Positions 15,675-60,156 of a stretch of 64,000 bases of DNA are shown here, in pieces. Below the pieces are notes generated by a model, which made no database searches, had not been told where the DNA came from, and saw only the letters and a program-made list of their open reading frames with translations. The translations under genes were made by a program, and so were the position numbers. The number at the start of each line of letters is the position of its first letter. The first letter of the stretch is position 1. Source of the stretch: Clarkia xantiana subsp. parviflora (Eukaryota; Streptophyta; Magnoliopsida; Myrtales; Onagraceae); assembly GCA_036873135.1 (NCBI GenBank), contig JAPTYO010000009.1, positions 42,052,756 through 42,116,755 on the forward strand. Reading direction: 5' to 3'.

Positions 15675-15710
15675 TGATCTGGTAGAAGCTATTTTGGCTT
15701 TTTGTAAGCT

Positions 15711-17081: not shown

Positions 17082-17083
17082 AT

Positions 17084-22372: not shown

Positions 22373-22401
22373 GGACAAGGTTCCTTATATGAGAGGGGTA
22401 T

Positions 22402-22602
22402 TGTCATGGAATGAGGAGTTTAGGGTCTGGAATGTTAAGTTTGTAAGTAGAGGGACTCAATTGTAATAAATGAGAATAAAACTGTTAAATAACAGATTCT
22501 CCAACGGAAGTTAGTTAGCCTACTATAAATGGCAGCTACTGTAATCTGTGGGATATCGATTGATTGAATGAAATATCTGAATTTCTGGTTCTCTCCCTAA
22601 CA
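22402..22602 (+). repeat. 3' LTR of element C
   Basis: 201 bp, one base different from the 5' LTR (CTGG for CCGG). A purine run (GAGAGGGG) just upstream serves as polypurine tract. Confidence 0.96.
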
Positions 22603-22607
22603 AGTTC

Positions 22608-32758: not shown

Positions 32759-33469
32759 TGTTGGATCACGGTGGAACTCCGGTACGGTCTTTTACGGCGA
32801 TCCTAGCTCCTTCGCTCCACGTGGTCCTGCAAAGAGGGGATAGACCGGGCGGTGACCCAGAATTCCTCTCCGATGCTTAAATGAGTATCTCGTATGGACT
32901 GGCAAGCAGTAATCTCAAAGTGTATAACACAACGTAATTGATCTGAGGTAGCCTATGCCCTCTTATAGGCGGAGAGGTACCTCAGTTACCTGGTGAACCG
33001 TTGGGGGTGGTTAGCCCGTATTCCACGTATCTCGGGTGCGATCCCGCTTATCTAGGCCATGATCTCGCTTATCTCGGCCACGCCCCGCGTATCTCGGCCA
33101 CGCTCCGTGTATCTCAACCACGTTCCGCGTATCTCGGCCACGCCCCGCGTATCTTGGCCTTAACCTCTGATAACAAGTCCCGACTAATATCGGGGACTCC
33201 AGAGTTATCTCGTTATGTCACCGCTCGGGGCCCCTCGTCCTCGTGACAGGGCCAATCATTTTCAGGGATTCATCATCGGGGCCTACTGGCTTCTCATCGG
33301 GAGCTTCCAGCTCGCCTATCTGGTCCGACTCTGTCAGGACCTTTTATCATCGGGACTCCCTCTGTCGAGACCCTTCGCCTTGGTCTTCTTGACCTCCATT
33401 TTAGGGCCCAGTGGGCCTATTTTCCGTTTCCTCACCGTTAAAGGGCTTAACGCATAGCGGAACCCATCA
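32759..33469 (-). repeat. 3' LTR of element D
   Basis: TGTTGGATCACGGTGG...GGAACCCATCA on the + strand; contains repeated CGTATCTCGGCCACG motifs. Confidence 0.94.
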
Positions 33470-33850
33470 ATTGCCCCCAAGACATGATGGACTTTTAGTT
33501 CGTCGTGTCTTTCAACTCCCGATCTCCCGACATCGAAGTCGGGGATCTTTCTCTTGTCATAGTCACCCAGTGTGAGTCTTCTCGTTCACGTTTCCTCAAT
33601 ATCTTGTGGATAAATGCCAAATTCGAGAGGACTCCTCGGTTCCCCAGCCATTAAATGCAGCAGACAACGAAGCGACGTCTTCAGTACTCGTGCCTGATTT
33701 TTCGCGCCTGCTTTTTCTGAAAAGTGCTTTTCAGGATGTTTCATCATTGCGTCTGTTGTCATTCTGCACGTTTCATCTCAACGGCTTAGATTAGAACACT
33801 TCAACTTCGACGATTCAGATCAAAGCGTCCCTTCGACTGTCCTCTTCGCC

Positions 33851-33858
33851 TATAAAAC
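33851..33858 (+). promoter_or_regulatory. TATA box of the antisense gene in element D
   Basis: TATAAAAC 164 bp before the ATG and about 380 bp inward of the 3' LTR, at the place corresponding to 8573-8580 in element B. Confidence 0.6.
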
Positions 33859-34014
33859 CTCACCCAGGGTACAGTTTCCTTTTACCATCTCCGAATTTTT
33901 AAAAGTTCTCTGCAACTTCTCTGCAAATTCAAGCTCTGTAATTCCGAAGACCTTAGTGTTCCTCCGATCACCTTTCCGGCAACGTCAAGTTCGTTCTTCC
34001 AACCTTCAATCATC

Positions 34015-34421
34015 ATGCCTGGTAAGGGTTTCTTCTTTATTGTTCCCCCATCTCCTTCCCTCATCTCTGTTTGGTTTGTTTGTAATTTCCCGGGAAAACC
34101 CAATGTGTCTTTCCATGCTTGATTTCAGACAGCGGATCTAGTTCCGAGGGGAGGAAGTTTTTCAACTTCGACTATGCTCTGAACGAGATATCCAGCACTG
34201 CTTATGATGCAGCTCTCCGGCTCTCCACCAGAGAAGCCGATGCTCAAGGCAGGAAATGCATACCACAAGTTCAGAGTGAAGAGGAGCTACTTCTTCATCA
34301 AAAACTCCTCCATCCCATGGCCCCGATAGTCGACCCTCCAGTGGCTGATCCTGTGGAGCTTTCTGTCATAGACCTCGTGGACCCTGTTCCTGTTGATGCC
34401 GTCGACAAGGACCAAGTTTAA
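34015..34421 (+). CDS. Two-exon antisense gene of element D (99 aa, unknown function)
   Basis: Exon 1 codes ATG CCT G (34015-34021). A 107-bp intron (34022-34128, GTAAGG...TTTCAG) is followed by exon 2 (34129-34421, stop TAA). The protein begins MPDSGSSSEGRKFFNFDY and contains LNEISSTAYDAALR and IPQVQSEEELLLH, nearly identical to the B protein, then a variable Pro/Val/Asp tail. It remains open although the host element's own gag-pol is broken many times, so it may have been under separate constraint or simply been a small target. No known domain recognised. Confidence 0.72.
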
Positions 34422-34555
34422 CTACTTATCTTTGGAGTCCTTTTTTCTTTTCTTGTTTTTGTAATCACCGGGCCTTTGAGCCCCATTAATATCAGACATT
34501 CTTGGCTCCGATTTTTCATTGCACTTCTCCAAGTGGCTTTACTATACTTCCTTAA

Positions 34556-35140
34556 GTCGAAACCTCGACACTTAAGATATTCTCACACATCACTTAAGAC
34601 GATTTACCAACTTGCACCACTTAAGGTGACTTACCATCATGCACCACTTAAGGCGTCTTTCCAATACTTAGAATAAATCCAAGAGTCGCGCATCACTTAC
34701 GACGACTTGATCTTATGCATCACTTAAGACGACTTAATCTCGTGCATCACTTAAGACGACTTTAACAATACTTAGAGTAAATCTAAGAATCATGCATCAC
34801 TTAAGACGACTTTTTTTTTTTCGTGCATCGCTTAAGATGACTTAACCTCGTGCACCACTCAAGGCGACTGTTCTCGTGCACCACTCAAGGCGACTTTTCT
34901 CGTGCACCACTCAAGGTGACTTTTTCGTGCACCACTCAAGGCGATTTTACATCGGGCACCACTTAAGGCGACTTTCATCGGGCACCACTTAAGGCGACTT
35001 TTTATCGGGCACCACTTAAGGCGACTTTTCATCAGGCTCCACTTAATGCGACTTTTTATCGGGCACCACTTAAGGCGACTTTTCATCGGGCACCACTTAA
35101 GGCGACTTTTCATCGGGCACCACTTAAGCGACTTTTCATC
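34556..35140. repeat. Tandem array in the 3' region of element D
   Basis: About 22 diverged copies of a roughly 25-27-bp unit with core GCACCACTTAAGGCGACTTT (reverse complement of the array core in A). Copies nearer the integrase are most alike; those nearer the antisense gene are diverged and contain ACGACTT variants. Confidence 0.88.
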
Positions 35141-37227
35141 AAGCATAGTGTTTCTTCAAGTGTTCGCCACTAAAAGAATTCTTTAATACTCTGCCATCGA
35201 GGTCTTCCAACTTGTATGCATTCGGGGCTGGCATCCCCACGACCTTGTAAGGTCCTTCCCATTTTGGTGACATCTTGCCGATCCGATCCAAAAGGGTAAA
35301 CTCGTTGCGACGACAAACCAGCTCCCCGACGAAGAATTGTCTGGACTTAACTCGCCGATTGTAATACCTGGCCGTCGTCAAACGCATTCGAGCCTGGACT
35401 TCGTCGGCTTCCCGCCTCTTCTCTTCGAGCAAGTCCAAGTCCAGACGTCTCATCCCATCGTTCGTTAGAGGTTCGTAATATCTCATCCGATGGGATGCCA
35501 CGGCTACCTCCACGGGAGCTACAGCCTCCGTGCCATAAACAAGGCCAAACGGAGTCTCCCCAGTTGCTCGTTTGGGAGTCGTTCTAACGGCCCAAAGCAC
35601 GTTTTCTAGCTCGTTCAGCCATTTTGCCCTTCAAGGCATAGACCCTCTTCTTCAGGCCATCCATCACGATTTTGTTGGCTGATTCCACCTGGCCATTAGT
35701 CTGAGCATGGCGTATAGAAGCTGTCTGATGCTCGATATTCAACTCCTCCAGATACTCCTTCACCTGAGACCCGTTAAACGGTGGACCATTGTCGCTGATC
35801 ACCACCTTGGGAATCCCGTATCTGGACACAATATGGGTCTGGAGGAACTTGACGATCTGGTTCCCCGTCGTTCTGGCCAACGCCTTTGCCTTTATCCATT
35901 TCGAAAAGTAATCGATATCTACAAGCAAATACTTACATTGACCTTGTGCTTGTGGAAGAGGTCCCACCAAGTCGATGCCCCACTGCGCGAAGGGCCAAGC
36001 GCTCTTGATGGTCGTCAGATTAGCAGCCGGAGCCACAATACTCGGGGGGTACCTCTGGCACGCGTCACAGGATCGGACCAACGTCGTCGCCTCCTTGCTC
36101 ATCGTAGGCCAATAATAGCCCAAGTTCAGCACTTTCCTCATAATGGATCGGACCCTTTCATGACAAGCTGCGACCCCTTCATGCACCTCCTTCAGGATTC
36201 GATTTGTGTCGGGCTCAGCCACACACTTCAAGTACGGAGTCGAGAACCAGCCCTTCTTGTATAGCTGATTGTCCAGCATCACGTAATTAGCCGCGATCCG
36301 ACGTATCCTGTCAGCTATTACTCTATCATCGGGGACTGCCCCCGTAGTTAGGTACGCGACTATCGGGGTCATCCAAGTGGGCTCCTCCTCCGATCCTACT
36401 TCAATAGAACATACCTGTGTTGGGTCGGTGGTTGACAAGATCACCCTCTCCAAGAAGTGCACCTTTCGGCTTTCCTCCAGGGGTGCCCCCAAGGCAAATT
36501 TGCTCAAGGCGTCTGCCTCCACGTTTTCCTCCCTCGGGATCGCCTCGATATCGAAGCTTTTGAAGCTTTTCTTCAAGGCTTGCACCTCACGAAGGTACTT
36601 CTTCATCATCGGGCTCTTCGCCTCATATCGCCCTTGGACCTGGTTCACAATCAAGGCCGCGTCACACTTCACTCTCAAGTGAGCGACTCCCGTACCTCTG
36701 GCAATTTTCAGGCCCGTGATAAGAGCCTCATACTCTGCTTCATTGTTCGTGGCCTTAAATGTTAAAGCCAAGGCATATCGAAGCGGATCACCTTCGCCTG
36801 GTGGTATCAACACCAGGCCTGTTCCTGATCCGTCCGAACTCGAGGAGCCATCTGTGTACATCTCCCAGGTATTTTTCTCATTTGGCTGTTCTGATTGCTC
36901 TGCCCTCTTTGGTTGTTCTTCTGTCGGGAACTCCATGGTTGCCCCCTCTACAGGGCCCGCTTCTTCTAGATCGGGGGCTGTAGATTCAGCTATCAAATCC
37001 GCCAATGCTTGGCCCTTAATAGCCGTTCTCGGAGCAAAGTGTATGCGAAACTCACTAAGCTCGACTGCCAATTTCACTAACCTCCCCGACGCATCCGGTC
37101 GGTTCAAAAAATGCTTCAGAGGCTGGTTCGTCAACACAGTAATCTCGTGTGCATGGAAATAAGGCCTCAGCTTTCGAGCAGTTATAATCAGCGCAAAGAG
37201 ATACTTCTCAACGGCAGTATAATTCAA
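35139..37227 (-). pseudogene. Element D RNase H, archaeal RNase H and integrase
   Basis: 37227-35584 reads the end of RNase H, archaeal-type RNase H (MYTDGSSSSDGSGTG), integrase zinc region (CDACQRYPP), WGIDLVGPLPQ, ISDNGPPFNGSQ and GQVESANK, so the D, D and E sites are kept. An extra T in a T-run near 35622-35627 shifts the frame. The rest (35600-35139) is the integrase tail with WEGPYKVVGMPAPNAYKLE, ending at a TGA or TAA near 35139. Confidence 0.9.
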
Positions 37228-37254
37228 TTCAGACTTGGCAAACGCCTTGTTTAC

Positions 37255-39783
37255 TTAATAGACGGGGACTTGATTACCCTCGACGACCTTCACTAATACA
37301 GAGCTAATGGAAAATTCAGAAACAGCCAAGTAAAGATAGAGCGGCTCGACTGGGACCGGTTTCGCCAACGGCGGGAGGGTGCGAAGGTGCTGCTTGAGTG
37401 CCTGGAACGCTTCTTCACACTTGGCGGTCCACTCAAACTTCTTGTTGGCACTCAAAACTTCAAAAAATGGCATTGATCGGTCACTTTCCTTGGACAGGAA
37501 GCGATTCATTGCTGCCAGTCGGCCATTCAGCACCTGCACCTCCCGATGGTTTATCGGAGACTGCATCTCCTCGATCGCCCTCAGTTTCTCGGGATTCACC
37601 TCAATTCATCTCTGGCTCACCACAAAGCCCAAAAATTTCCCTGAGTGGCCTCTGAAGGCGCATTTGGTTGGGTTTAAGCGAACCTGATGAAGCCTCATCC
37701 GCTCAAACGCCATGGCTAGGTTGTGCACATGATCCTCAGCCTGTCGGGACTTCACCAGCATATCATCCACGTAAGCCTCCATGGTTTCCCCTAGCATATC
37801 TCCGAACAGCTTGTTCACCATCCGCTGGTAGGTTGCCCCGACATTGATCAACCCAAAAGGCATGACATCGTAGTGAAAGATGTCGTTGTCTGCATAAAAT
37901 GCCGTGTGAGGAGCATCTTCCTTAGCCATCTTGATCTGGTTATAGCCGGAATATGCATCCATAAAGCTCAACAGCTCATGTCCCGATGTGGCATCCACCA
38001 GCTGGTTGATTCTCGGGAGCGGCTAACAGTCTTTCGGGCAAGCCTTATTCAGATCGCGGAAATCAACGCACATTCGCCACTTCCCGTTGCTCTTCTTCAC
38101 TAGTACCGGATTAGCAACCCAGGTCTGGAATCGGAGCTCCTTGATAAACCCAGCATCGAGCAACCTGCCTACCTCCTGCTGGATTGTAATCCTCTTGTCT
38201 GTGCCCATCGGACGCCTTTTCTGCGCAATAGGTTTGATCGCGGGATCAATCTTCAGCTCATGCACAATCACGTCGGGGCTGATTCCTGGCATGTCACTCG
38301 GGGACCAGGCAAACAGCTCCTTTAACTCCTTCAGCAGCTCAATCAATTTTTGGGCTGTCTCTTCGGTCAAAGCAGACCCGATTTTCACCTTCCTCTGAGG
38401 TCCGTCAATCTCGACTTCCTTCAGATCCTCCACGGGGGCAGGACGCCCAAACTCCTCTCTAGGATCAGCATCTGTCTGGAGGACAGTCATGGCCTCTCGT
38501 CTCCTCCTGCGAGTGGCGTTTACATAACACTTTCTAGAAGCCACCTGGTCGCCCTTGACCTCTCCGACTCCATGGTCAGTCGGGAACTTCATCTTCTGAT
38601 GAACAGTTGAGGCAACTGCCATCAGGGGGTTGATGGTAGTTCTCCCGATAATCGCGTTGTAGGTCCCCGCGGACTCGACTACCACAAACTCCACGTTCCT
38701 CCTCTCTGATTTCCACCCGCTGCCAAACTCCACTGGTAAGGTGATCACTCCTAGTGGATAGGAGGTGAAACCAGAGAATCCGACCATCGGGAAGTTCGCC
38801 TCCTTTAGGTCCTTCTTCGTTTACCCCATGGCCTCCAGTGCATCCATGAATAGAATGTCGGAGGAGCTCCCTACATTGATCAGAATTCGCTTCATCTTAT
38901 ACCCGTTCACATCCAAGGTCACGACCAGAGCGTCATCGTGCGGAGTCTCCACGCCTATGAGATCCTCCGACGAAAAGGAGATCACCATCTCTTCCTTCAG
39001 GGTCCAGGATCGGGACCTCTTACCAAGCACCACAGCAGTAGGAATTTTAGAGTCATAAACCTCTCGGGAGGACGAGGTGTCACCCCCCGCGGCAAACCCT
39101 ACGTGAATCACGTTGATTGTGCCTCGCTTCTCCTTACGGGCACCGGAAGATTCCGGGTCGGACCTCTTCTTCTTTGGGGACCGATCACGGGATCGGGAAC
39201 GGGACCGTGATCGGGATCGAGAGCGGGATCGACAGTGCTTCTCCCCGACAAACTCCTTAAGCTTCCCCTTCTGGATCAGCTTTTCGATCTCCTTCTTCAG
39301 CTCCCGACAATGATTGGTGTCATGGCCATTCGCGCGATGGAATCGACAGTAGCGGTCGGTGCGGGATCCCAAAAACTCTCCTTCCTTCTTCGGGGGGTAC
39401 CTAGAGATACCCTGTCGCTCCATGACCGTCAACACCTCCGCCATAGAGCTATTGAGAGGAATTTCATGATCCTCCCGCCTGTCCTTTTTCGAGGAACGCC
39501 TATCATCCCTCCGATCGGAGCGACCTCGACCCCGACTGCCCTCAGTTTTATCCTTCGACTTACGCTCGTCTAAGGGTTTAACTGACTGCTTTCCCTTTTT
39601 CGATTTCGGGGGCTCGAGCTCTCCAGCGGCTATCTTCGACTCCTGGACATCGATTTGCCGCTTCACCCTTTTCTGCAACGCCTCCATATTCCACACAGCC
39701 TTCTCAGCCACGCTGTGCATCAGGTCGGAACCGAAGGGGGCTGTTAGGTTCCGAATGAAGGTACGGATGGTTTCACCTTCCAA
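37255..39783 (-). pseudogene. Element D gag C-terminus, protease and reverse transcriptase
   Basis: Pieces 39783-38821 (gag C-part with knuckle-like CRFHRANGHDTNHC and an Arg-Ser repeat; protease start ILINVGSSSDILF, in which the catalytic Asp of DGG is Asn), 38787-38023, 37998-37606 (RT with YVDDMLVKS) and 37599-37255 are separated by single stop codons near 38820, 38024, 37605 and 37256, with the frame otherwise kept. The protease change alone would prevent maturation. Confidence 0.88.
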
Positions 39784-40745
39784 AATCTCCTCGTCAATCT
39801 CCGCCAGCTAGCCGTGTATCGCTGGTAGTAATGCGCCAGCGACTCATCGGGCCTCTGTACCAGCTGGGTCAGGGACCTCACACTCTTCAGCAAACGTCTG
39901 CGACCTTGGTACTGCTGAATGAAGCGGTCGTGCATATCAGCCCAGCAAGTGATGCAGCCTGGGGGCAGATTGAAGAACCAGGTCAGGGCTCTTTCACCAA
40001 GTGTGTTCGGGAACAGCGTACACACGATATCTTCATTCGGGGCTCTTCCCAGACACGCCATGAGGTGCTTCTGGACATGACGAACCGGATCTCCCTCGCC
40101 ATCGTACTCCTTTATCGTGGGGATACCCAGCCCTGGCGGGGCGAGGGTGTCTATGAGTCGAGGAACGAAGGGATGAGTAGATCGATCCCTCAGCTCCGAC
40201 ACCTGCGGCTTCTGCTCTCCCATGCAGATGTTCACGATCTTCACCACCTGATCGGGGGTGATGGGACCATTAAGGGGAATGGTCCTGTGTTGCACTGGTC
40301 CTGGCCCATCAACCACGAATCCCTCTGGCTGAACGGACTCCCCACTCCTGCCCTGGCCTCGGGGCTGAGCCTCCCGCACGTTCTGAACCTCTGCTTGTGG
40401 GGGCGCTTCCTTTTCTAACGGGGGCATCTCCTCTTGCCTCCTCGCAGCTTCTCTTCGATCCAAGAGAGCCTCCACATCTGCCAAAAACATTGGCATGGCT
40501 TCCGCCACAGCCCTCGTTAGGTCCGCAGCTGGAGGAGCCACCAGCTCCCTGTTCCCCTGGTGTTGAGCAGCAGTATCTTCAGGAGCTTCATTATGCCACC
40601 CTGTCTGAGAGACCTCCGCGGGGAGATTCTGGTCCTCAGCATGCTCTGGTGGTGAATTCAAAGTCGTCGCAGCAGGATGACGGGAACCACCAGATTGTCC
40701 TTGTCTTCTTTGCTTGCCAGCCACCATTGAACGAGTAGAAGGCAT
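39744..40745 (-). pseudogene. Element D gag N-terminal part
   Basis: Starts MPSTRSMVAGKQRR just inside the primer-binding site. Contains MFLADVEALLDRREAARR, NGPITPDQVVKIVNICMG and the Retrotrans_gag core (LGERALTWFFNLPPGCITCW; DESLAHYYQRYTAS). It ends in a frameshift overlapping 39744-39783. Confidence 0.9.
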
Positions 40746-40781
40746 ATTAGCTTTTTGTTACGTTCACACAGACGGCGCCAA

Positions 40782-41498
40782 TGTTGGATCACGGTGGAAC
40801 TCCGGTACGGTCTTTGACGGCGATCCTAGCTCCTTCGCTCCACGTGGTCCTGCAAAGAGGGGATAGACCGGGCGGTGACCCAGAATCCCTCTCCGATGCT
40901 TAAATGAGTATCTCATATGGACTGGCAAGTAGTAATCTCAAAGTGTATAACACAACGTAATTGATCTGAGGTAGCCTCTGCCCTTTTATTGGCGGAGAGG
41001 TACCTCAGTTACCTGGTGAACCGTTGGGGGTGGTTAGCCCGTATTCCGCGTATCTCGAGTGCGATCCCGCCTATCTAGGCCATGATCTCGCTTATCTCGG
41101 CCACGCCCCGCGTATCTCGGCCACGCTCCGTGTATCTCAACCACGTTTCGCGTATCTCGGCCATGCCCTGCGTATCTTGGCCTTAACCTCTTATAACAAG
41201 TCCCGACTAATATCGGGGACTCCAGAGTTATCTCGTTATGTCACCGCTCAGGGCCCCTCGTCCTCGTGACAGGGCCAATCATTTTCAGGGATTCATCATC
41301 GGGGCCTACTTAAAGGCTTCTCATCGGGAGCTTCCAGCTCGCCTATCTGGTCCGACTCTGTCGGGACCTTTTATCATCGGGACTCCCTCTGTCGGGACCC
41401 TTCGCCTTGGTCTTCTTGACTTCCATTTTAGGGCCCAGTGGGCCTATTTGCCGTTTCCTCACCGTTAAAGGGCCTAACGGTCATAGCGGAACCCATCA
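40782..41498 (-). repeat. 5' LTR of element D
   Basis: 717 bp. Differs from the 3' LTR by scattered substitutions and a small indel (about 6 bp near 41310). PBS TTGGCGCCGTCTGTG adjoins on the - strand. Confidence 0.94.
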
Positions 41499-48267: not shown

Positions 48268-49514
48268 TGATGCATTGCTTTCGAAAAAATAAACTATGTT
48301 TTGTAAATGAAAAATGCTTAAGAGAATCTGTGCCTAAGAATATGCAATTTAGGTGGAATCGTTGTAATGCCATATTAAAGGTTGGCTGACTAGGTCTATT
48401 GCTAAGAATTTGCAGCATGGTTTGGTTTATAGTACCATAACTCTTTCAATCTGGTTAGATTTACATGAGCGTTTCAACAAGATATATGGTACTAGAGTTT
48501 TCCATTTGATAAGGGAGCTATATCGTGTCAAAGAAATATAATCATTGCTGATTTTTTTGAGAATATTAAGATGATTTAAGACGAATTAACAACAGCTGAT
48601 GATATTGTCTTTGTGTGGACTGCCTTATCTCAGTAAAGGTTATTGCAACCAAGGCTAAGTAAAAGCACATGCAGTTCCTTAATGGAATAAAAACTTATGC
48701 TCACACTTATCTGCTCATGATGCACCCACTTTCAACAATTAATTGCTTATTCAGTGTTGATTCATGATGAGAGTCAGAAGATGCTAAGAGAATTAGTCAC
48801 AGATGGTCTCGTGGATTATATTGAACCACCTGCGTCAGTGGATTAGAGAAAAATACTTACAATAAGAACAAAAAGAACTTTTTTTGTAGCTACCCGAATA
48901 GAAGAGGTCACGATGAGGAAATTTGTTGGAAGAAACATGATGTCCCATATCATATCAGGAAGAAGTGGGCTGAGAAGGATAAAGGAAGAGTGACAGATGA
49001 TAACACCTATTTTGAGAAATGAAATGTTTATCATCGAGGAATTAAACATCATCAAATCAATTCACCAGCTCATGACCCCTCTTTGAATGAGCAACTGACA
49101 CAAGCATTAAAGGTCCTAACTCAATTACATGCAAAAGGAATCAAGTAAGAACCTGCTGAAGCAAAAGTGAACATTACATGTACAAAGAACTGTTAATGTG
49201 ATCTCTGATGATTACTAGAGTACTAACAGTGGTGTATCAAATCACATGACATGCAACAAAGATTGGTTGATGAATTTGAAGATAAGTGATCTATCAAATA
49301 AGGCGGTACATCTACGAATGGTAGTTTGTAACCAGTGACTCGTTTTGGTTCATGCATCATTGGATCATTATTACTTCACAAAGTCTTATATTTACCGGAT
49401 TTCAAGTATAACTTGATCTTCTTCTCTCAAATGACAAGGGAACTTGATTATTTGTGGTATTTCTTTATGAAATTGTGGTGTTTCAGGTCAACTCAAATGA
49501 GAAGATGATGGGTG
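48268..49514 (+). pseudogene. Copia F gag and pre-integrase region, decayed
   Basis: Readable in mixed frames: SIWLDLHERFNKIYGTRVFH (UBN2-type gag), a knuckle remnant CSYPNRRGHDEEIC in which the second cysteine is lost, SGVSNHMTCNKDWL near the protease, and LHKVLYLPDFKYNLIFFSQM, the typical sequence before copia integrase. Element E is inserted at 49515. Confidence 0.75.
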
Positions 49515-50345
49515 ATGGACATACACGTGATTCGGGCTCGGTTTTAAATTATCCAGACTTCATACACGCACGGGGCCCACCGCGAAACCCAATTTCAAGC
49601 TAACCGGGGGAAACCGGGCAAGTTTCGAACTTGCCCGGCATCCCTGGGGGGCTTGCCCGGAAATTTCCGGGTAAGTCTAGCTTACCCGGAATTTCCGGGT
49701 AAGCCTAGGCTTACCCGGAGGCTTACCCGGAATTCCGGGTAAGCTCCACACCCGGGGGGTGTCGCGCACACCCCCCATTTTACCTCGGACGTATACGGAG
49801 ACCCGATTTTTAACTAACTCCTATGTGTCCGAGACCTATGTTTCAAAGGCGCGCGCGTCCCGCTCGGGACAGCCGTCTGAGACGCGCGTCAGAGTCCTTT
49901 TCCCCAAAGCTCTCCCCTGTACCCCGGTTCACATTTCCACATCGAACCGGGTCAAAACCGGTTTACGGTCTAAGGTTGCCTATAAATAGCCACCTTGGGG
50001 GTAAACATTTTCAAGTCATTCCAAAATCATTTTAGGCAAGAGTGGGAAAAGCTCTGACCTCTCTCTAGAAAACCCTCTCTTTCTCTCTCTAGAAAACGAC
50101 TAATGTTGATCGTCGGAGTGAGCACACCAAGCACCCCCCCCCCCCCTCTCCACGGGGACTGCTTGGTAACGCTCCTTTCGCAGGTGCAGGCAGACAACCT
50201 TCCCGAGAGCCCGAAGGACTTGCCCTCATTCAGAAGACGAAGCTAAGGCCCGTACGCGACTCTAGAAGACGGACTTAGCTCGCATCCAACCCGAAGACTT
50301 CGACAAGTTATCCAGCGGACAGCCCGCAATAACTTGGTCGAAACA
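49515..50345 (+). repeat. 5' LTR of element E
   Basis: TGATGGACATAC...GGTCGAAACA; TATAAATA at 49981-49988. It contains a run of inverted CTTACCCGGAATTCCGGGTAAG units (about 49655-49745), longer here than in the 3' LTR, and a C-run near 50136-50146 that also differs. Confidence 0.95.
49655..49747. repeat. GC-rich inverted-repeat cluster in the E LTR
   Basis: Several overlapping palindromes of CTTACCCGG / CCGGGTAAG in direct and inverted order. The 3' LTR has fewer (about 59500-59560), explaining most of the 33-bp length difference. Confidence 0.85.
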
Positions 50346-50346
50346 C

Positions 50347-50362
50347 TTGGCGCCGTCTGCGG
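50347..50362 (+). promoter_or_regulatory. Primer-binding site of element E
   Basis: TTGGCGCCGTCTGCGG one base after the LTR; same type as B and D. Confidence 0.8.
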
Positions 50363-50383
50363 ATCACCCACAGAACCAACAGC

Positions 50384-52120
50384 ATGGCAAGCAACGAGCA
50401 GCCACCGCCGACTAAGACGAAGAGAAGAGGACCAGGACGTCCAAGGAAAACTCCGGCTCCGGAGTCAAGCATGAGATCTCCTCCGCAGAGAAACCCCCCG
50501 CAGAGCCAAGGCGAGGCCTCAGTCGCCTCGTCTATGCCGGCAAGAAGCGTACACTCTCGGAGTAACGCGCAAGGGGGCACACAGCAAACCAACGCTCCTC
50601 CAGGCTTCGCCCACCAAACCTTCAACACGCAGGAGCAACCATACGGAATGCCAAACGCTGGAGCATACAACCAAGCACCAGGGGCACAGACTGCGCCTAC
50701 AGTCACCCCGGAAATGATGGCAGCACTCGAACAGCTGCTTCATCTAAGAGAGGCACTGCGCAACCAAGGATACGGGGCGCCACCACCCCCTCCCGCGCAA
50801 CAAGCAAATATGCCCCCGCCACCAAGGCAGGTGCCTCCAATGAACACACCTCAGCAGAGAGGCCCTACAATCTCAAAAACCCCGACCTTTCACGGGAATG
50901 CACAGCAAAACAGGCAGTTCCCCCAACAAGGGACAAGACAGGAGCTCTCACACTCCCAAACACCCTACCAAGCAGGGCCATTCAATGAAGGAGCCTGGAG
51001 GCAGCCGTCTCAAACATTCCAGGGATATCAAGGTGGATATTCTCAGTACAACCCGACGCAGGCGCAATTTCCCCAACAAGGCGCAAGCATGGGACAAGAT
51101 GCATATCAAGATGCATACCCCCCAAATCAGGGTAACCCAATCACCGGGTTGAAGGAGGAGATGCTTGAAAAGCTGATCGAAAAGAAGATAAAGCAAAGGA
51201 AGATGAGAGGGATGAACACATTGGTGGACACCACATCCCACCCTTTCACTGACGAGCTGGTGTACAGTCGCGTCCCAGACGCACTGTATAATCTAAGACC
51301 AGAAAAATACCGAGGCAAGGGAGATCCAATAGAGCATGTGCAGCAGCATGAAGTAATGCTTTTGGGAAGGACAGACAACCCTCACCACATAGCCATGACG
51401 TTCCCCCAAACGTTAGGCGGACCAGCCGCACACTGGCTCTTCTCCCTGCCAAAGCAAAGCATAGACTCGTGGCAGTCCCTCAAAGAAATGTTCATCCAAC
51501 GTTACATGGGAGAACGTTCGATTATCAAAGGATCAAATGCCTTGGATGACGTCAAGCAAGAGTGGAATGAGTCCCTCGCAAGCTACTACATCCGATTCAA
51601 CCAAAACATCTCCGAAATCCAAACGAACATCGCAGAGACAGAAATCATCCATGCCTTTGTCAGAAACCTGGGTAGGCACGGGTACGACTTAGGCCAAAAG
51701 CTTTCTACAAGACCTGCGGAAACAATGGAAGAACTCGTGGCAAGAGTTAAAGAATACATCGATGCTGAGCATTACAAGATGACAGCACGGGACAAGTGGG
51801 GTAAGCCCGGCAACAAGAAAGATGAAAGCAAGCCAGGCCCCCCGAAGCAGAACCAAACCCCCCAACAAAAACAATGGACTCCGCCCCAGAAGAGAACATT
51901 CAACATTGAAGAAGACAAGAATCCAGACGTCAACACCATCGAGCTGATCCCTTTGAATGCTCCCCTGAGCGTCATACTGAAAGAAATGAAAGAACAAAAC
52001 CTCTGGAGAGAGCCATTCGGTTTCAGAAAGGGTCAGCTAGGGAAGGAGCAAGACAAGTGGTGTGAAAGCCACGAAGTCAACGGCCATGAAACAGACGACT
52101 GTAGAAGCCTTAAGTTCTAA
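50384..52120 (+). CDS. Gag of element E
   Basis: ATG 34 bases after the LTR region. Residues 13-24 (KRRGPGRPRKTP) form an AT-hook-like motif. A long Pro/Gln-rich, probably disordered region reaches about residue 260, then the Retrotrans_gag domain (LGGPAAHWLFSLPKQSIDSW; FIQRYMGERSIIKG; NESLASYYIRFNQNISEI; AFVRNLGRHGYDLGQ). Near the end is the knuckle-like CESHEVNGHETDDC. It stops at TAA 52118-52120, but the same frame continues after that TAA and a TGA at 52127-52129 into 52187-53572, so gag and protease were once one frame. Confidence 0.92.
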   Translation: MASNEQPPPTKTKRRGPGRPRKTPAPESSMRSPPQRNPPQSQGEASVASSMPARSVHSRSNAQGGTQQTNAPPGFAHQTFNTQEQPYGMPNAGAYNQAPGAQTAPTVTPEMMAALEQLLHLREALRNQGYGAPPPPPAQQANMPPPPRQVPPMNTPQQRGPTISKTPTFHGNAQQNRQFPQQGTRQELSHSQTPYQAGPFNEGAWRQPSQTFQGYQGGYSQYNPTQAQFPQQGASMGQDAYQDAYPPNQGNPITGLKEEMLEKLIEKKIKQRKMRGMNTLVDTTSHPFTDELVYSRVPDALYNLRPEKYRGKGDPIEHVQQHEVMLLGRTDNPHHIAMTFPQTLGGPAAHWLFSLPKQSIDSWQSLKEMFIQRYMGERSIIKGSNALDDVKQEWNESLASYYIRFNQNISEIQTNIAETEIIHAFVRNLGRHGYDLGQKLSTRPAETMEELVARVKEYIDAEHYKMTARDKWGKPGNKKDESKPGPPKQNQTPQQKQWTPPQKRTFNIEEDKNPDVNTIELIPLNAPLSVILKEMKEQNLWREPFGFRKGQLGKEQDKWCESHEVNGHETDDCRSLKF

Positions 52121-52186
52121 ATCAATTGAATCATACAAGAAGGCGGACTTAAGCACTACGTCGACCAGGGGGGAAAGATCGAAAAG

Positions 52187-53572
52187 GTGAAAAGAAAATT
52201 CACGACAAAGGAGAAAGGAAAAGAGAAGACCACTGACAACCCTCCTCCTAAAAAGAGGGGAGTCGTTAATGTCATTCATGGTGGTCCAGCTGCAGGAGGA
52301 CAAGTCTCCAACACAAGAGATGTCTACGCTGCGCAGGCAAGCACACTCCCCAAGTATGGGAAAAGAAAGAAACCGGAAGAGGAGGACCTCGTGATAGGAT
52401 TCTCGAGAAAAGACATGGCACACATCGTCTACCCACATGATGACGCGTTAGTAATAACGATGGAAATCAACGGGTTCGATGTCAAAAGAATTCTAGTCGA
52501 CGGAGGAAGCTCGTCAGACATCCTCCATATCAACGTCCTCGAACAGCTGGGAATGAAAAGAGAGGACCTGAAGCCGGGAAATTTCCCGTTAGTAAGCTTT
52601 GCTGGAGCTGCTACATACCCACTGGGAATGATCACCCTTCCCACTGTGATAGGAGAGGGATGGAACGCAATGAAAGTCGACATCACTTTCGTGATTGTCG
52701 AAAGCCTTGGCGCTTACAACGGAATTCTCGGAAGAACAACGATAAACCCCTACGAGATGGTGCCCTCAACGGCACATCAAAAGCTGAAATACCGCTTAAG
52801 GGGAGGAATTGGTGAAGTCTTGGGCGATCAGACAACAGCACGAAAATGCTATGTCAACGCCCTAAGATGCAAGAACCGCCTGGACATTGCAGTCATTGAA
52901 AGGGGACAGTGTTCCAAATCTGAAGTCGAAAGGCGATTTGACGAGATGATGAGCAAAGGAGAAAGACTCCCAACACTTCAAACCCCAATGCTCCCAAGCA
53001 TATGGGACATCAAACAAGGAGAGTCAGAATCCATCCAAAACTACTTCAAGCGATTCGCTATTAACGCAACTTCAAGTTTTGCAGACAAGTCAGCCGTGAT
53101 CAATGCCTTTTTCCTGAACATGAACTCACCCACATTTCTCCTATTTGGACGAACACAAGGGTGGAGAACAACCAAGTCTATGGCTGACTTAAAAGAGAAG
53201 ATGGAGACAGCAATCGAAGTCGCAAATGAGCTGGGGTGGTTCAGCCCACCTGCAGAACACGAGGAGGCGCGCGAACAAGAGCGTGCAAGACAAGACTTGA
53301 ACAACAACCAAGATGGAGAATATACACCTCTAAACATAGAGGTGGAAGAGTTGTTCAAGACCATCCTGAAGGATGTTTTACCTCCTCCAAGCGAGATCCG
53401 AATTGCCTTCCTCGGGAAGAATCCAGAAATGTGGTGCCACTATCACAACAAATGGGGTCACAGCACGAATGGCTGCCCCTCTCTTCGCAACAAAATCGAG
53501 GAACTGATCAAACAAGGAGCTCTGCGCTCCTACATTGCATGCAGGAAGCCAGCTTTATCAAACCGTCACTAA
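52187..53572 (+). CDS. Protease plus second gag-like segment of element E (no pol)
   Basis: In frame with the preceding gag apart from two stops. First part: GVVNVIHGGPAAGG, then the aspartic protease (PHDDALVITMEINGFDVKRI; DGGSSSDIL near residue 105; YNGILGRTTINP). Where relatives go on to reverse transcriptase, this frame instead reads MLPSIWDIKQGESESIQNYF, KSAVINAFFLNM, TKSMADLKEKMETAIEVANE and a second knuckle-like WCHYHNKWGHSTNGC followed by KIEELIKQGALRSYI, the layout of the C-terminal half of a Tat gag. It ends at TAA 53570-53572 with no pol behind. The given ATG is internal; the true start is at 50384. Confidence 0.88.
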   Translation: MKRKFTTKEKGKEKTTDNPPPKKRGVVNVIHGGPAAGGQVSNTRDVYAAQASTLPKYGKRKKPEEEDLVIGFSRKDMAHIVYPHDDALVITMEINGFDVKRILVDGGSSSDILHINVLEQLGMKREDLKPGNFPLVSFAGAATYPLGMITLPTVIGEGWNAMKVDITFVIVESLGAYNGILGRTTINPYEMVPSTAHQKLKYRLRGGIGEVLGDQTTARKCYVNALRCKNRLDIAVIERGQCSKSEVERRFDEMMSKGERLPTLQTPMLPSIWDIKQGESESIQNYFKRFAINATSSFADKSAVINAFFLNMNSPTFLLFGRTQGWRTTKSMADLKEKMETAIEVANELGWFSPPAEHEEAREQERARQDLNNNQDGEYTPLNIEVEELFKTILKDVLPPPSEIRIAFLGKNPEMWCHYHNKWGHSTNGCPSLRNKIEELIKQGALRSYIACRKPALSNRH

Positions 53573-53934
53573 GGGAATAACCCTTCCCTTATGACATGCA
53601 CATACTCTATCTTTACTTTTCAAATGCTGAATAGAACGTTTAGGATGGGAGATCAGTTGACTCCATCCATGCACATCCCTTGTAAATAAACAAGAAGACT
53701 AATGAAGTTCACTCCTTGCGTAGGAAAAATCACTATGTAATGGCAAGCTTCCCCGGTCCAATACCAGGAACAAGCCACATACATCACCAACAAAGGCCCT
53801 AACCCTATACGCAGAAAGGGCAACCAACAAGAAAAGCCATCAAAAAGATATCAAAGCAAGACTAAGCGAGGCTCATCACGACAAACCAAAACAAAGGACG
53901 TTTGACGCATACAAGGAGTTGAAGTATCCTCACC
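53573..53934. other. Non-coding stretch after the sense ORF of element E
   Basis: No open frame of note. It links the gag-protease-gag frame to the 131-bp array. Confidence 0.6.
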
Positions 53935-54719
53935 AAGGATGTGAACGTACTAATCTATTCACATCCTTGCAAAAGTCGGGGGACAAGAGGATCATTGGAA
54001 ATCCTCCATCGCAAACAAATGCAAGTGTCGGACGTACTAATCTATCCACACTTCGCCATCATACAAGGATGTGAACGTACTAATCTATTCACATCCTTGC
54101 AAAAAGTCGGGGGATAAGCGGATCATTAGGAATCCTCCCTCGCAAACAAATGCAAGTGTCGGACGTACTAATCTATCCACACTTCGCCATTATACAAGGA
54201 TGTGAACGTACTAATCTATTCACATCCTTGCAAAAAGTCGGGGGATAAGCGGATCATTGGGAATCCTCCCTCGCAAACAAATGCAAGTGTCGGACGTACT
54301 AATCTATCCACACTTCGCCATCATACAAGGATGTGAACGTACTAATCTATTCACATCCTTGCAAAAAGTCGGGGGATAAGCGGATCATTGGGAATCCTCC
54401 CTCGCAAACAAATGCAAGTGTCGGACGTACTAATCTATCCACACTTCGCCATAATACAAGGATGTGAACGTACTAATCTATTCACATCCTTGCAAAAAGT
54501 CGGGGGATAAGCGGATCATTGGGAATCCTCCCTCGCAAACAAATGCAAGTGTCGGACGTACTAATCTATCCACACTTCGCCATCATACAAGGATGTGAAC
54601 GTACTAATCTATTCACATCCTTGCAAAAAGTCGGGGGACAAGCGGATCATTAGGAATCTTCCCTCGAAAACAAAGACAAGGGTCGGACGTACTAATCTAT
54701 CCACACTTAGCCACAGCAT
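53935..54719. repeat. Six-copy 131-bp tandem array with paired hairpins in element E
   Basis: Unit starts at 53935, 54065, 54196, 54327, 54458 and 54589, nearly identical. Each unit has two inverted repeats around the same 12-base loop CGTACTAATCTA: GGATGTGAA/TTCACATCC and AAGTGT-GGA/TCC-ACACTT. A decayed seventh half-unit is near 54725-54760. Confidence 0.92.
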
Positions 54720-55137
54720 CAAATATGTGAACATACTAGTCTGTTCACATCCTCATAAAGAAAGACAAGCACTTCAACGAGGATCATCCTCCTTACAAAG
54801 CCACAGACGACGGTAATACCAACTCATCCACAACCGTCACCAACAGAGATGCAATTTCCTAAGGAAAACCATCGGATCAAGAAAATCAACCATTCAATAG
54901 AGCAACACTCTTACAAAAAGAGAACAAGTCACTGAGACAGCAATAAAGGAAGATGCAAAATAATACTTAGTATTATATCTTTCTAACATCTCATGTCAGG
55001 CATATATATATAATATAGCAGGACTCAAAAGTAAAGACATCCAGCCAGCTTAAAAGTCGAGCCCAAGATGCAACCCGTCAAAATCTCACCCATGCAAGGG
55101 GAGCAACCATATGTACACATGGAAAAACAAAGAAAGA
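54720..55137. other. Sequence between array and antisense gene of element E
   Basis: No gene seen. It would hold the 3' untranslated region and polyadenylation signals of the antisense gene on the - strand; I cannot fix the site. Confidence 0.5.
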
Positions 55138-57470
55138 TCAACCTGACCCAACGTCAGGAGCACCAGAACCAAAGACATCAGTCATAAAAACATCTTGCGC
55201 TGGGCCTTTGAAAGCACCCCGGCGCTCATCACCAACAGGGATGGACACCTGTCCCGTCAAACCACTCGTTCCACCGCTCGCTCGGATCCCCGCAATAGCC
55301 CCAAGGGCATAGCCAGCATATGGACCAGCACTCTGGAAAGGAAAATCGGGGGCAAGGGAGTATACCCTCCTGAAGTAATCCACAGAGAAGGACTCCATGC
55401 GATCATCACGCGCCTTCTCAAGAAGCTTTGGATAATCAGCTGTAGTAGGAAACCCAATCATTCCAAGCTGATCACCCAGGGCAACGTGAGACTCCTTAGT
55501 CTCCCTCAGCGCCACAACATGTGCTTCCTCATCGACCTTCTCCTGGCGTAGTAGGGCAAATAGCTCCGCCTCCAGCTGAGACGCATAATCCTGACTCCTC
55601 TTGAGATCAGCGGAAGCCTCGGAAGAAGCATCTGAATGCGCGCGTGCCTTCTCCCTCAACACAACGACACCCTGAGACAAGTGCTCGTGACGATCCTGTA
55701 GACCCCTCGTCTCCTCAACAAGCTCAACAACAAAAGAGGAAAGGTTGGTCATCACGGCATTCACCTACAACAACAACACAAACACATCATACACAAAGAA
55801 GTCAGACAAACATGATAGATCCAACATAAAAGGAAAGCAACGTACAGGAGCAAAGCGCGCGAGTGACTCCTCGACACATTTCAACGCAGCCTCAGGATCC
55901 CGGGGACACGTCTTGCGGTCAGCCGGTGGAACAGACCGCTGAACCACACGCACACCAACAGCAGGCGTGCTCAAGGAAACATCCTTGGGAAAACGGACAG
56001 CAGACCGAGAATACGGAACCCACTCACTCCCAGACACATCCCGATCAGGCCGGCAAATCAAATCAGACTTGCGAAGAGCCGGAGGAGTAGGGACAACTAC
56101 ACATCAAAAGCAAACACGTTAGGAGAGGGCAAACCATACTAATACAACAAGAAGTCAACCACAGTTACCTGCCAAGGGAGGCACCTCCTCTGAACGCCCG
56201 CTCCCCGACCGGGGGACATGCAGGGTCGAATCTGCGTACATAGGCCCTTTCCCTTTGTCGCAGGAAGGAGCAAGAGGCATGCCGTCAGATGTCAACCTCC
56301 TAGGATCGCTCGGGGAGCGGACGTCAGCATCATGCTCCCCGACAGGAACAACTCCCCCCGTCGTCGGAAAGTCCAAGCCTACAAAGACGACCACAAAGAG
56401 ACCATTAGCATGTTAGCATGGGAAAAATCTCAACAAAACATTTAAAAGGCACAAGTCCCATACCCGGGCCAACTGGAAGAGTATCGTCTAGGCCGGGAAC
56501 AATGTGAGAAGACCCGCCTGCAACTCCACCCTGTAAACAGGGGCGTCTGTTAAGAAACCAACCTACAAGAAAACAAGAGCAGATGTTACAAAACTTCAAA
56601 ACATACCAACTCCTCCCTCGAAGGACGTACGTGAATGCCCGCCGCGAGCAGCTCGACGTCAGAAGCACGATAAAGGGGGCTGTACTCCCCCGCCCTATTC
56701 GCCGCATGGATTTTCTTCAAAGCAACCTTATCTCTATCAGAAAACTCCTGAAATCGTGGAACGGGATCGGCATCCAAAATGTGAGAAGTCGCCCAAGTCG
56801 TGCCTGCATCCTTTACAAAAAAGTACTGACACTTCCATTTATTCCGGGAAGTGTCCGACCGTTCGCAGAATCGCGCTTCAGTATTCCACCCCGCCCGGCG
56901 CAAGCCAAGGGAAGAGAATCCCTTTTCGGTCATATGAGGCCAACGCAAGCTGAAGGTGCACATCCCAGACTCATCCGCCTTACCCAGGCGGTAAAAGGCT
57001 CGAAACAACACTATTGAGTAGTCCCAGGAATTCAGATGACATTGCACCCGAAAACACGTCCAAGCCCTGAACCCTGGTGGGGTAATAGAGACAGGAGAAA
57101 TCCTATAATATCGACAAAGGCGGACCAGATCCTGGCAGTAGGGAAACCGCAGCCCCTCTCGAAACTGTGAAAGGTAGACCGCCTCATACTCAGCTGGAGG
57201 AACGGTAGGCCGACCAAATTCAACTCCCTTCACAACAGCCCAAGGATACGAGACCTCTAGGCCGGGACACCAGCCCCGGGTCGAGACGTAGAGGTCAAAC
57301 TTGGAACGTGGAAGCTTGTTGGGAAAAAATATCTGAGTCTTCTCCAATATCACGCGGTCACCCAACGGTCCCAAGAGTACACCACTTCGAGACCCAGAAT
57401 CGGAATCCATGGTGCTCTCGCCAACCTCACCCTCAAAGTTATCCGAAACAAAAGGATGAGACTTACTCAT
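55138..57470 (-). CDS. Five-exon antisense gene in element E, 672 aa, Transposase_28-like N-part and coiled coil
   Basis: Exons on the - strand: 57470-56607, 56530-56464, 56378-56169, 56096-55846, 55764-55138 (864, 67, 210, 251, 627 nt). Introns are 76, 85, 72 and 81 bp, all GT...AG. Joined, the frame is open for 672 codons plus stop. The N-terminal exon (YLSQFREGLRFPYCQDLVRL; ISPVSITPPGFRAW; FRAFYRLGK) resembles the plant family Pfam calls Transposase_28 (putative gypsy type transposon); this is from memory. The middle exons are Pro/Ser-rich. The last exon has a long coiled coil (ETRGLQDRHEHLSQG to ALRETKESH) and a Gly-rich tail. No catalytic motif seen. It runs opposite to gag. An intact, correctly spliced frame implies recent function or recent copying. 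Confidence 0.82.
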
Positions 57471-58405
57471 TATGCGAAGAAGTGGAAACCGTTTCCTATC
57501 AAGAATACTCTAAGTATCAGAGTCGGGCGCCTGCAAGCCCGTCAACCAAGCCCTGCGAAAACCATACACCAACTCAATCAAAAACCAAGGCAACACATCA
57601 ACCACACTCATCAAAGTCCTTTACAAGGACATTCAACCCAACGGACCAACCGTCCGCATACAAACAGCTAGGGACCCTCCCGCTCGGGAGTCAAAAATCC
57701 TTACGCTCATCAAAGGCCTAGGCCAATTACTAATCAAATTTTCATACGTTTGTGCAATGAAACACAGGTTTCAAGCGCTCTACAAAGCGACAAGTTCAAG
57801 AGCTAAAGAAATCAAAGGCATACAAAGTTGGTTATAATTACCAAAATGCCATCCGACCACCTTTTGATCAAATTTCATCCTTAAAATGGCTCAAGGCTCC
57901 GGGGGCACATACAAGCAGCTCAAATGCACTCAAGCAAGCCCGTTACATGCCACAGAGGGACTTACCCCTCCCCGAACAACCCGAAGAACACTCGGGTCAA
58001 CTAAGCCACTAATGAAGGCAAACTACCAAGCAATCACCTAAGCTCCGGGGGCATAGCTATCCACACACAAACAATCAAGGGGGCATTATCACAATAGGGG
58101 ACATCATTTCAAGTCACCCGTATCAAGATACAAGGGGTCGAGCTTTTCGCTCGAAAAACTCCGATTTCGAACCTCCGCGATTCCCCCTCGGTTGATCGGA
58201 ACCTAGGGACCTCTTCACAAAGGGAGTTCGCTATCCTTAACTCTATCTATCTACACTTAGAGCTTAGCCAAAAGCAAATTTTGAAAATCAAGCCAAAGCT
58301 TCACTTAGGCATTTCATCAAACACCTACAATGCACCTTATTGAAATTCAAATGTGCAGCCCTATAGGTATAATTAACTTCAAGAAAAGTGAGTGGAAGAC
58401 GTTAC

Positions 58406-58645
58406 CAATCGATGCTCGACAAAAAGGACTCGAAACCGGATCGAATCGGACTCAAAATCAAACCACGAAGGTTGCAGCCGCCGCCGCCGTTCCTGCCGTC
58501 CCCGCCGCTGTCGCCGCCGCCTCGCCGCCGCTGCGCCGTCCTGACGTCGCCGGTGATGCCCCTGGTGGTGGCCGGCCGAAATGGTGTCTCCCTAGCACCC
58601 TAAAGTGAATTCCCAAAATCCCTACCTTAGCTCCTCCAAAACTCT
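58406..58645 (-). promoter_or_regulatory. Possible first non-coding exon and promoter of the E antisense gene
   Basis: On the - strand TATAAAAC (58679-58672) is followed by a GC-rich stretch and a donor-like GATTG/GTAACG at 58406/58405. An acceptor-like TTGATAG lies about 30 bases before the ATG. A leader exon with an intron of about 0.9 kb would fit a plant gene. The GCC-repeat ORF on the + strand here is then only leader complement. Inference. Confidence 0.4.
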
Positions 58646-58679
58646 CACCACAACCAATTCAAAAGTTGATAGTTTTATA

Positions 58680-59353
58680 AACTATCATGGAGGAGAGGGA
58701 CTACACAACATGGTAAGTACCATACATCAAGGAGGTACATTCCTATCCCCCATTCATTTTTTAAATTGTTGATGGCTTGGGTTTTTAGCTATCAAATGAC
58801 TAGGATAAATCTAACTAAGTCATTTCAAATGTCCTCAATTTTTTTGAAAACGTTGAGTTTATGATTTCTCGTATTAGGGCCGTTGCATGTGATTTCCCAA
58901 AACCCGGCCCTATTTCATTCACCCAAAACCGTCGTCTCGCCGTCAAGACGGCCGTCTCGGACGACGAGCTCCCGGAAACTATCGCACTACATGAAAAACA
59001 TTTTTTCAAGACTTGCATGATTTATTATCATTTTGATACATTTAGTCGTATCATGAACGTTCCGTATTTATTAGTTCATCGTACGAGCCCGAAAGATTTC
59101 ATGTGCGCCCGCACCTTAATTCTCCAAACAATCACATTTATCATATTATTCGTAGTCCGTTGTGCTACTAACCCTTTGTGCAGTTACCAAGCGTGACCAT
59201 CTCAAAAACTAAGTCAAGGAACTTGTCAGAGCCGCGCGCATCCACCCTTGGTAGGTCAAAACTCGAGGTGAGCAGACGACCCGAATCACGCGTATACCCT
59301 ATCTTAGAATAGAGTTAAACAAAGGTCAAGCCATTATTTAACTCGGGGGCAAG
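58680..59353. other. Region between antisense promoter and 3' LTR of element E
   Basis: No gene recognised. Ends in the polypurine tract ACTCGGGGGCAAG (59341-59353) of the sense element. Confidence 0.5.
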
Positions 59354-60151
59354 TGATGGACATACACGTGATTCGGGCTCGGTTTTAAATTATCCAGACT
59401 TCATACACGCACGGGGCCCACCGCGAAACCCAATTTCAAGCTAACCGGGGGAAACCGGGCAAGTTTCGAACTTGCCCGGCATCCCCGGGGGGCTTGCCCG
59501 GAAATTTCCGGGTAAGCCTAGCTTACCCGGAAGCTTACCCGGAATTCCGGGTAAGCTCCACACCCGGGGGGTGTCGCGCACACCCCCCATTTTACCTCGG
59601 ACGTATACGGAGACCCGATTTTTAACTAACTCCTATGTGTCCGAGACCTATGTTTCAAAGGCGCGCGCGTCCCGCTCGGGACAGCCGTTTGAGACGCGCG
59701 TCAGAGTCCTTTTCCCCAAAGCTCTCCCCTGTACCCCGGTTCACATTTCCACATCGAACCGGGTCAAAACCGGTTTACGGTCTAAGGTTGCCTATAAATA
59801 GCCACCTTGGGGGTAAACATTTTCAAGTCATTCCAAAATCATTTTAGGCAAGAGTGGGAAAAGCTCTGACCTCTCTCTAGAAAACCCTCTCTTTCTCTCT
59901 CTAGAAAACGACTAATGTTGATCGTCGGAGTGAGCACACCAAGCACCCCCCCTCTCCACGTGGACTGCTTGGTAACGCTCCTTTCGCAGGTGCAGGCAGA
60001 CAACCTTCCCGAGAGCCCGAAGGACTTGCCCTCATTCAGAAGACGAAGCTAAGGCCCGTACGCGACTCTAGAAGACGGACTTAGCTCGCATCCAACCCGA
60101 AGACTTCGACAAGTTATCCAGCGGACAGCCCGCAATAACTTGGTCGAAACA
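59354..60151 (+). repeat. 3' LTR of element E
   Basis: 798 bp; same ends as the 5' LTR, TATAAATA at 59793-59800. Followed by the duplication ATGGG (60152-60156). Confidence 0.95.
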
Positions 60152-60156
60152 ATGGG

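Follow-up and report, generated by a model that had tools for sequence, protein, structure and literature searches.

The window analysed here is a stretch of 64,000 nucleotides from Clarkia xantiana subsp. parviflora (contig JAPTYO010000009.1; C9:42052756-42116755). It contains a 10.6-kb Ty3/gypsy long terminal repeat (LTR) retrotransposon at 49513-60151 that carries gag on its sense strand and, on the opposite (minus) strand, a gene of five exons. An earlier note on this DNA had joined these exons by four GT-AG introns with matching phases into a single open frame of 672 codons, and rebuilding the model reproduced the exon coordinates to the exact base, giving a coding sequence of 2019 nt (672 codons and a stop) with intron phases of 0, 1, 1 and 0 in order (Table 1). 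On the coding strand the introns are rich in T (0.47, with a GC content of 0.38) relative to the exons (T 0.28, GC 0.55). The open frame is not unique, as a loose search over GT-AG intron combinations retained 687 models with long open frames, and the five-exon model is singled out by the quality of its splice signals, the variation by codon position among 19 copies, and the positions of introns in distant relatives. On the comparisons presented below, the antisense gene is a real, old accessory gene of spliced type with a putative function.

Close copies of the gene were collected by searching the genome (695.6 Mb) with the 2421-base interval of the window. The best 40 of 840 candidates are 95-99% identical to it over nearly their full length and all run through the introns, in a list that favours full-length matches. 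Eighteen other copies drawn from the 39 listed, together with the window, make up the 19 sequences compared, and broken copies were kept in the estimation of nonsynonymous (dN) and synonymous (dS) divergence. The introns, which the earlier note had expected to persist in copies of the element, are present in 18 of 18 copies. All but one of their 72 GT/AG pairs are intact (71), the one lost having its defect at the intron-4 acceptor of a copy with an open frame. The frame itself is whole in 13 of the 18, with three copies broken by a stop and two by a one-base insertion. Over all 171 pairs, dN is 0.0132 and dS is 0.0831, for a dN/dS of 0.159. Variable sites are concentrated at third codon positions (185/673, 0.275) relative to first (73/671, 0.109) and second positions (68/671, 0.101), and are found at 69/302 intron sites (0.228) and at 1 of 16 sites in splice dinucleotides.

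The numbers of variants expected in each class were computed from mutation rates derived from the introns. Among variants found in at least two copies, 22 are nonsynonymous against 144.7 expected, 82 are synonymous against 66.4, and none creates a stop against 4.8; the corresponding figures for singletons are 124 against 223.4, 109 against 99.1, and 6 against 11.8. Strong constraint thus acts in lineages that have spread, and a weaker one in single copies, which is the pattern expected of an element gene. The earlier note had proposed dN/dS across other copies as a check, and purifying selection is borne out by the ratio and by the shortage of nonsynonymous changes among shared variants. Coding on the sense strand was considered as a cause of the codon pattern and is excluded, because the sense frame with coinciding third positions contains 15 stops in 287 codons over exon 1 and 10 in 208 over exon 5, and a frame so full of stops cannot produce the codon-position pattern.

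Evidence for the age of the introns comes from more distant loci. The Transposase_28 profile PF04195 scores above its cut-off in 150 of 150 scored genome places, out of 11371 candidates, and the window protein was aligned to 20 PF04195 loci by a custom spliced aligner. Over residues 97-282 these loci sort into nine groups with less than about 60% identity between them and are 31-47% identical to the window, or 28-40% identical over the whole alignment with the window protein. Intron 4 (after residue 464, phase 0) is placed in L010, L012, L014, L019, L020, L021, and L026, which belong to four groups; these are seven of the 15 loci whose alignments pass the site when only the GT-AG rule is applied, and the same seven of 11 when splice signals are scored. 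With 73 introns placed over 9631 aligned residues, the expectation for this position by chance is about 0.1 in 15 loci. Six of the 20 loci (L009, L010, L017, L020, L021, L028) share intron 3 (phase 1, residues 377-383), and four (L010, L020, L021, and L026) share intron 2 (phase 1, residues 295-312). The donor of intron 1, GTA[ACT][GT] or GTAATY, occurs in phase 0 in 15 of the 20 loci, in another phase in two, and is missing from three. An estimated half or so of comparable stretches would contain so short a pattern by chance, so that its weight rests on the shared phase and the shared downstream context. L010 and L020 each have four introns with phases 0, 1, 1 and 0 near the expected places. 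An additional intron after residue 56 in L010 is taken for an aligner artefact, as are introns placed after residue 448 in four closely grouped loci, and these were left out of the argument. The distribution across groups indicates that the intron set predates the split of several families.

The 3′-end of intron 1 carries two conserved AGs, at which the intron would end at 56563 or 56531. In the window, TTGTAG is followed by GTTGGTTT, with the second AG 32 nt downstream. Of the two, the downstream AG (56531) alone joins exon 2 in frame; use of the first AG would place a stop in the window's exon 2, and this AG was therefore rejected as the sole acceptor. Of the 17 distant loci that have a donor, 13 allow a similar pairing of AGs; the spacing is 32 nt in nine of them, 29 nt in three, and 35 nt in one, and the first AG of the pair is mostly TGTAG followed by GTTG or GTCT. 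Intron 1 is also the least variable of the four among the 19 copies (7/76 sites, against 61/238 in introns 2-4). Some relatives read through intron 1 in frame. Conserved retention of the intron was rejected, because its lengths to the first AG (44, 50, 52, 57, and 61 nt) differ modulo 3 between families and because the window's own intron 1 contains a stop. The two acceptors may be alternative sites that yield proteins of two lengths, one short and one long; otherwise, the intervening stretch may be a splicing signal.

With regard to the encoded protein, the earlier note had described an N-terminal part resembling Transposase_28 and a C-terminal coiled coil, and had proposed a profile search of the joined protein. 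That search gave a weak match to PF04195, with 19.9 bits for the joined protein and 21.2 bits for exon 1 relative to a gathering cut-off of 26.2. The resemblance holds in the relatives, as all nine sequences of an exon-1 alignment (the window and eight relatives) match PF04195 at E <= 0.01, the best at 2.8e-11, and share invariant GLR-P, W, and YFF columns. The putative Transposase_28 domain of the window protein is thus called through its relatives. The C-terminal part is better described as coiled-coil-like: a heptad pattern at residues 465-506, equalled in two of 500 shuffles of the exon-5 protein, is consistent with a coiled coil. The joined protein had no match at E <= 0.001 among 7994 scored candidates of a protein database whose plant content is apparently thin. 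The exon-1 alignment found one match among 3193 in that database, an Abeliophyllum protein that carries PF04195 and is called a gypsy transposase by one source. No homologue outside elements and no source gene was found in this database, apparently thin in plant proteins. An AlphaFold model of exon 1, based on a two-row alignment, has a mean predicted local distance difference test score of 34.7.

Table 1. Features of the antisense gene and of the element that carries it (window coordinates)
Feature	Position	Strand	Remarks
Exon 1	56607..57470	-	288 codons; Transposase_28-like stretch at residues 99-162
Intron 1	56531..56606	-	76 nt, phase 0; alternative upstream AG would end the intron at 56563
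Exon 2	56464..56530	-	67 nt
Intron 2	56379..56463	-	85 nt, phase 1
Exon 3	56169..56378	-	210 nt
Intron 3	56097..56168	-	72 nt, phase 1
Exon 4	55846..56096	-	251 nt
Intron 4	55765..55845	-	81 nt, phase 0
Exon 5	55138..55764	-	includes stop; coiled-coil-like start
Left target-site duplication ATGGG	49508..49512		5 bp; identical bases at 60152-60156
5′ LTR (TG...CA)	49513..50345	+	LTR alignment; ends set by target-site duplication
Sense open reading frame (ORF) 1, gag	50333..52120	+	stop to stop; Retrotrans_gag PF03732, E 3.3e-14
Sense ORF 2	52130..53572	+	stop to stop; aspartic-protease-like stretch, then second gag-like stretch at about 52997-53545
Tandem repeat	53934..54753		131-bp unit, 6.3 copies
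Candidate antisense promoter	58601..58850	-	TATAAAA starting at 58679; putative
3′ LTR	59354..60151	+	LTR alignment
Right target-site duplication ATGGG	60152..60156		5 bp

The element that hosts the gene has the hallmarks of an LTR retrotransposon, namely two LTRs, TG...CA ends, and a 5-bp target-site duplication. The alignment of its LTRs, whose first column is the base preceding the LTR, spans 834 columns with 795 identities, four mismatches (799 aligned columns), and 35 gap positions in two length differences. The few mismatches and the flanking ATGGG duplication argue that the host element is young. It has two gag-like stretches, each matched by the gag of a Tat-type polyprotein, at 51362-52900 with 40.6% identity and at 52997-53545 with 24.3% identity. 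The partner in the 40.6% comparison is the gag-protease of the window element at 10689-14927, the pol of which has RVT_3 placed between its ribonuclease H (RNase H) and integrase domains, and the host gag is related to those of Tat-type elements. A double gag as in the window is also seen in L020, L026, L053, and L054. The protease match in ORF 2 is weak (PF13975, E 0.016, below the cut-off). Reverse transcriptase (RT), RNase H, and integrase are absent from the host element, as homology to the polyprotein ends at residue 530 and RT begins at residue 656; the element is therefore non-autonomous, as the earlier note had described it. Each 131-bp unit of the tandem repeat, which is situated between ORF 2 and the antisense gene, contains two inverted repeats surrounding a CGTACTAATCTA loop, and the stretch 54100-54232 folds much better than shuffled sequences (z -4.33, 0/200).

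The same layout recurs across the genome. The best 40 of 4739 candidate matches to the gag stretch (50400-53570) comprise 39 full-length matches at 96-100% identity, the window included, and one split match. Comparison of 40 listed matches each for gag and for the antisense gene yields 22 pairs (window included) on opposite strands at gaps of 1262-1793 bp, and no same-strand pair within 12 kb was found among the listed matches. The gaps differ by whole multiples of about 131 bp in 21 of the 22 cases, the exception being 1442. Gaps of this size and step imply 22 copies without pol between the two genes, with the number of tandem repeats as their main difference. Eighteen further matches on each side are unpaired, which is uninformative, each list holding the best 40. 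Ten of the 20 distant loci have gag-like sequence on the strand opposite to their Transposase_28 gene (L009, L020, L021, L022, and L025-L028, with L016 and L017 only when flanks were extended), and the polyprotein match in these ten never reaches RT. No gag was found near L010, L012, and L024 even with extended flanks, or near L013, L014, L015, and L018 in unextended flanks. Beyond L023 (at L058), gag pieces on both strands are accompanied by an RT-bearing polyprotein, 87% identical to that of the window element at 10689-14927, which is read as a probable separate insertion.

Antisense Transposase_28 genes are already known to mark elements of the Retand lineage (PMC11963269), of which antisense Transposase_28 ORFs are described as typical (PMC11963269, PMC7264820). 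In one survey the domain, for which DNA binding is predicted, occurs in antisense ORFs of 97% of Retand clusters, with nearby tandem repeats as a hallmark, these repeats being found in about half of Retand elements (PMC11963269); another source gives the domain in 23% of Retand elements (PMC6317226). The window element resembles the Retand aORF-3R arrangement (Vicient 2025, PMC11963269) in having a Transposase_28-like antisense gene downstream of the sense genes and ahead of the 3′ LTR, in the tandem repeats of the same region, here with a 131-bp unit compared with 8-100 bp (PMC11963269), and in that some members of that group are non-autonomous. It differs in that one five-exon gene joins the Transposase_28 and coiled-coil-like parts in an element without RT. 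By description only, it can also be likened to maize Grande, whose gene23 is an antisense accessory gene in a long 3′ internal region, for which nuclear localisation and a promoter of its own are reported (PMC7264820). Ogre, a Tat-clade element, uses host splicing as the window element would, but its intron lies on the sense strand (PMC6317226), whereas the window introns are antisense and would remain in the genomic RNA. PMC11963269, a survey based on ORF Finder and RT-seeded mining, has 0 occurrences of the word 'intron' in its main text, and the passages of PMC12786077 that mention introns do so only for Ogre, EVADE, and reporter constructs. The papers and passages covered thus gave no description of introns in the antisense gene, and no priority is claimed.

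The host is most probably a pol-less Ty3/gypsy element of Tat/Retand type in which the antisense accessory gene of the lineage is kept in the form of an ordinary spliced plant gene. On the minus strand, a TATAAAA at 58679 is identical in seven of seven sequences (the window and six copies), and the surrounding interval 58601-58850 has 24/250 variable sites relative to 253/1582 in the remaining upstream sequence (Fisher p 0.008, with limits picked after viewing the profile). An internal promoter about 1.2 kb upstream of the gene would drive antisense transcription toward gag, and the host spliceosome would then excise the four introns. The mRNA would encode a 672-residue protein with Transposase_28 and coiled-coil parts that, from the literature on related proteins, is probably nuclear and nucleic-acid-binding, and that may raise amplification of the element through control of transcription or of an integration intermediate. 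The sense genomic RNA would be the template for reverse transcription, with the missing RT, RNase H, and integrase presumably supplied by autonomous relatives. Because the introns appear in the sense RNA only as reverse complements, they would not be spliced out and new copies would retain them; that antisense introns survive by lying opposite to the genomic RNA is a sound inference from the retrotransposition cycle.

Several observations weigh against this reading. The splicing of the antisense gene is predicted from DNA sequence; the PF04195 score of its protein is on its own below the cut-off, and the low-confidence structure of exon 1 lends the proposed molecular function no support. The fraction of intact copies is an upper estimate, as the copies come from the best-preserved matches (best 40 of 840), and one of the 13 copies with an open frame has lost its intron-4 acceptor. 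In the distant relatives, intron 4 was not found in L009, L017, and L028 (one group) or in the L022 group, although the alignments pass the site; intron 2 and the intron 1 acceptor are less securely fixed, some of the aligner's introns are clearly artefacts, and loci inside one group are not independent. In two loci, L011 and L019, the Transposase_28 match and the gag closest to it share a strand; this gag either does not fit the layout or is part of another insertion. Finally, the host element lacks RT, on which lineage phylogenies are built, and its membership in Retand is putative.

The earlier note had left open whether the gene was captured or long resident, and had called the element a vehicle. 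Recent capture of host cargo together with its introns, by transduction in antisense orientation, would yield just the introns and internal position that are observed, and the Abeliophyllum protein as the single database match can be cited in its favour. Against this stand the abundance of PF04195 in the genome, the frequent association of the relatives with gag, the lack of a non-element homologue (in a database apparently thin in plant proteins), passages of PMC11963269 that give no similarity outside transposable elements, and above all the introns common to several element families, which make capture unlikely; we regard it as very improbable. Nine further groups, several of which share introns, favour long residence over capture, for which no source gene was found, and 'vehicle' is a misleading term in that the gene has the appearance of regular accessory equipment of its lineage and not of cargo.

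The remaining alternatives concern what the frame and its transcript do. A functionless open frame, whether a by-product of sense coding, a product of chance, or a relic of recent descent from one intact copy, could be argued from the many open GT-AG combinations, the overlapping sense ORFs of 134-170 aa, and the 95-99% identity of the listed copies; it is hardly credible given the synonymous excess among shared variants, the predicted introns that vary like introns, the many stops in the wobble-matched sense frame, and introns shared at 28-40% identity. A transcript that works mainly as RNA, with the protein secondary, is a somewhat less remote idea, although still improbable. Antisense overlap necessarily permits double-stranded RNA, and a role of such ORFs in this form or in silencing control of the sense RNA has been raised (PMC7264820), but the constraint in the window gene tracks codons and not nucleotides, with introns 2-4 and third positions varying freely.

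Under the preferred reading of a spliced accessory gene, the conserved multi-intron structure that unites Transposase_28 and coiled-coil-like parts in one protein appears to be new, as does the presence of a spliced antisense gene in several families with gag but no adjoining pol. Antisense Transposase_28 ORFs have so far been catalogued separately with no role assigned, and if they are exons of one gene then current annotations split a protein, the coiled-coil part of which belongs to the same product as the Transposase_28 part. A multi-intron gene kept through retrotransposition would also be a clean natural case of strand-protected introns. TR-GAG and other pol-less LTR elements, which have gag and no pol, have amplified to many copies; the window element differs from these in bearing two gag-like stretches and an antisense gene of spliced type. 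That an accessory gene is under selection in pol-less elements hints at a gain even when the enzymes come from others. A more far-reaching scheme is tentative and, taken as a whole, rather unlikely: pol-less, double-gag elements would be long-lived parasites of autonomous relatives that keep one spliced antisense gene, its product would be a trans-acting regulator, the choice of intron-1 acceptor would decide whether a short Transposase_28 protein or the full one with its coiled coil is made, and the separate antisense ORFs of Retand would be exons of one spliced gene.

Other elements are present in the window. Two related Tat-type elements lie at 7283-16500 and at 32759-41498 (minus strand), with LTRs that are 97.8% and 96.4% identical, and both have RVT_3 between the RNase H and integrase domains. 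The window's Transposase_28 protein has no match in either of these two elements. The pol of the element at 7283-16500 is found at 97% identity or more in at least 55 genome places, the window included, and these copies from an autonomous family are possible helpers for the pol-less element. A short gypsy element at 16881-22603 is bounded by 202-bp direct repeats that are 99.5% identical and includes gag, protease, RT, RNase H, and integrase domains together with a Tf2-1-like SH3 domain. Tandem repeats of 27 bp occur at 1029-2031 (37 copies) and at 34848-35140 (11 copies), and the two arrays are related to each other in inverted orientation.
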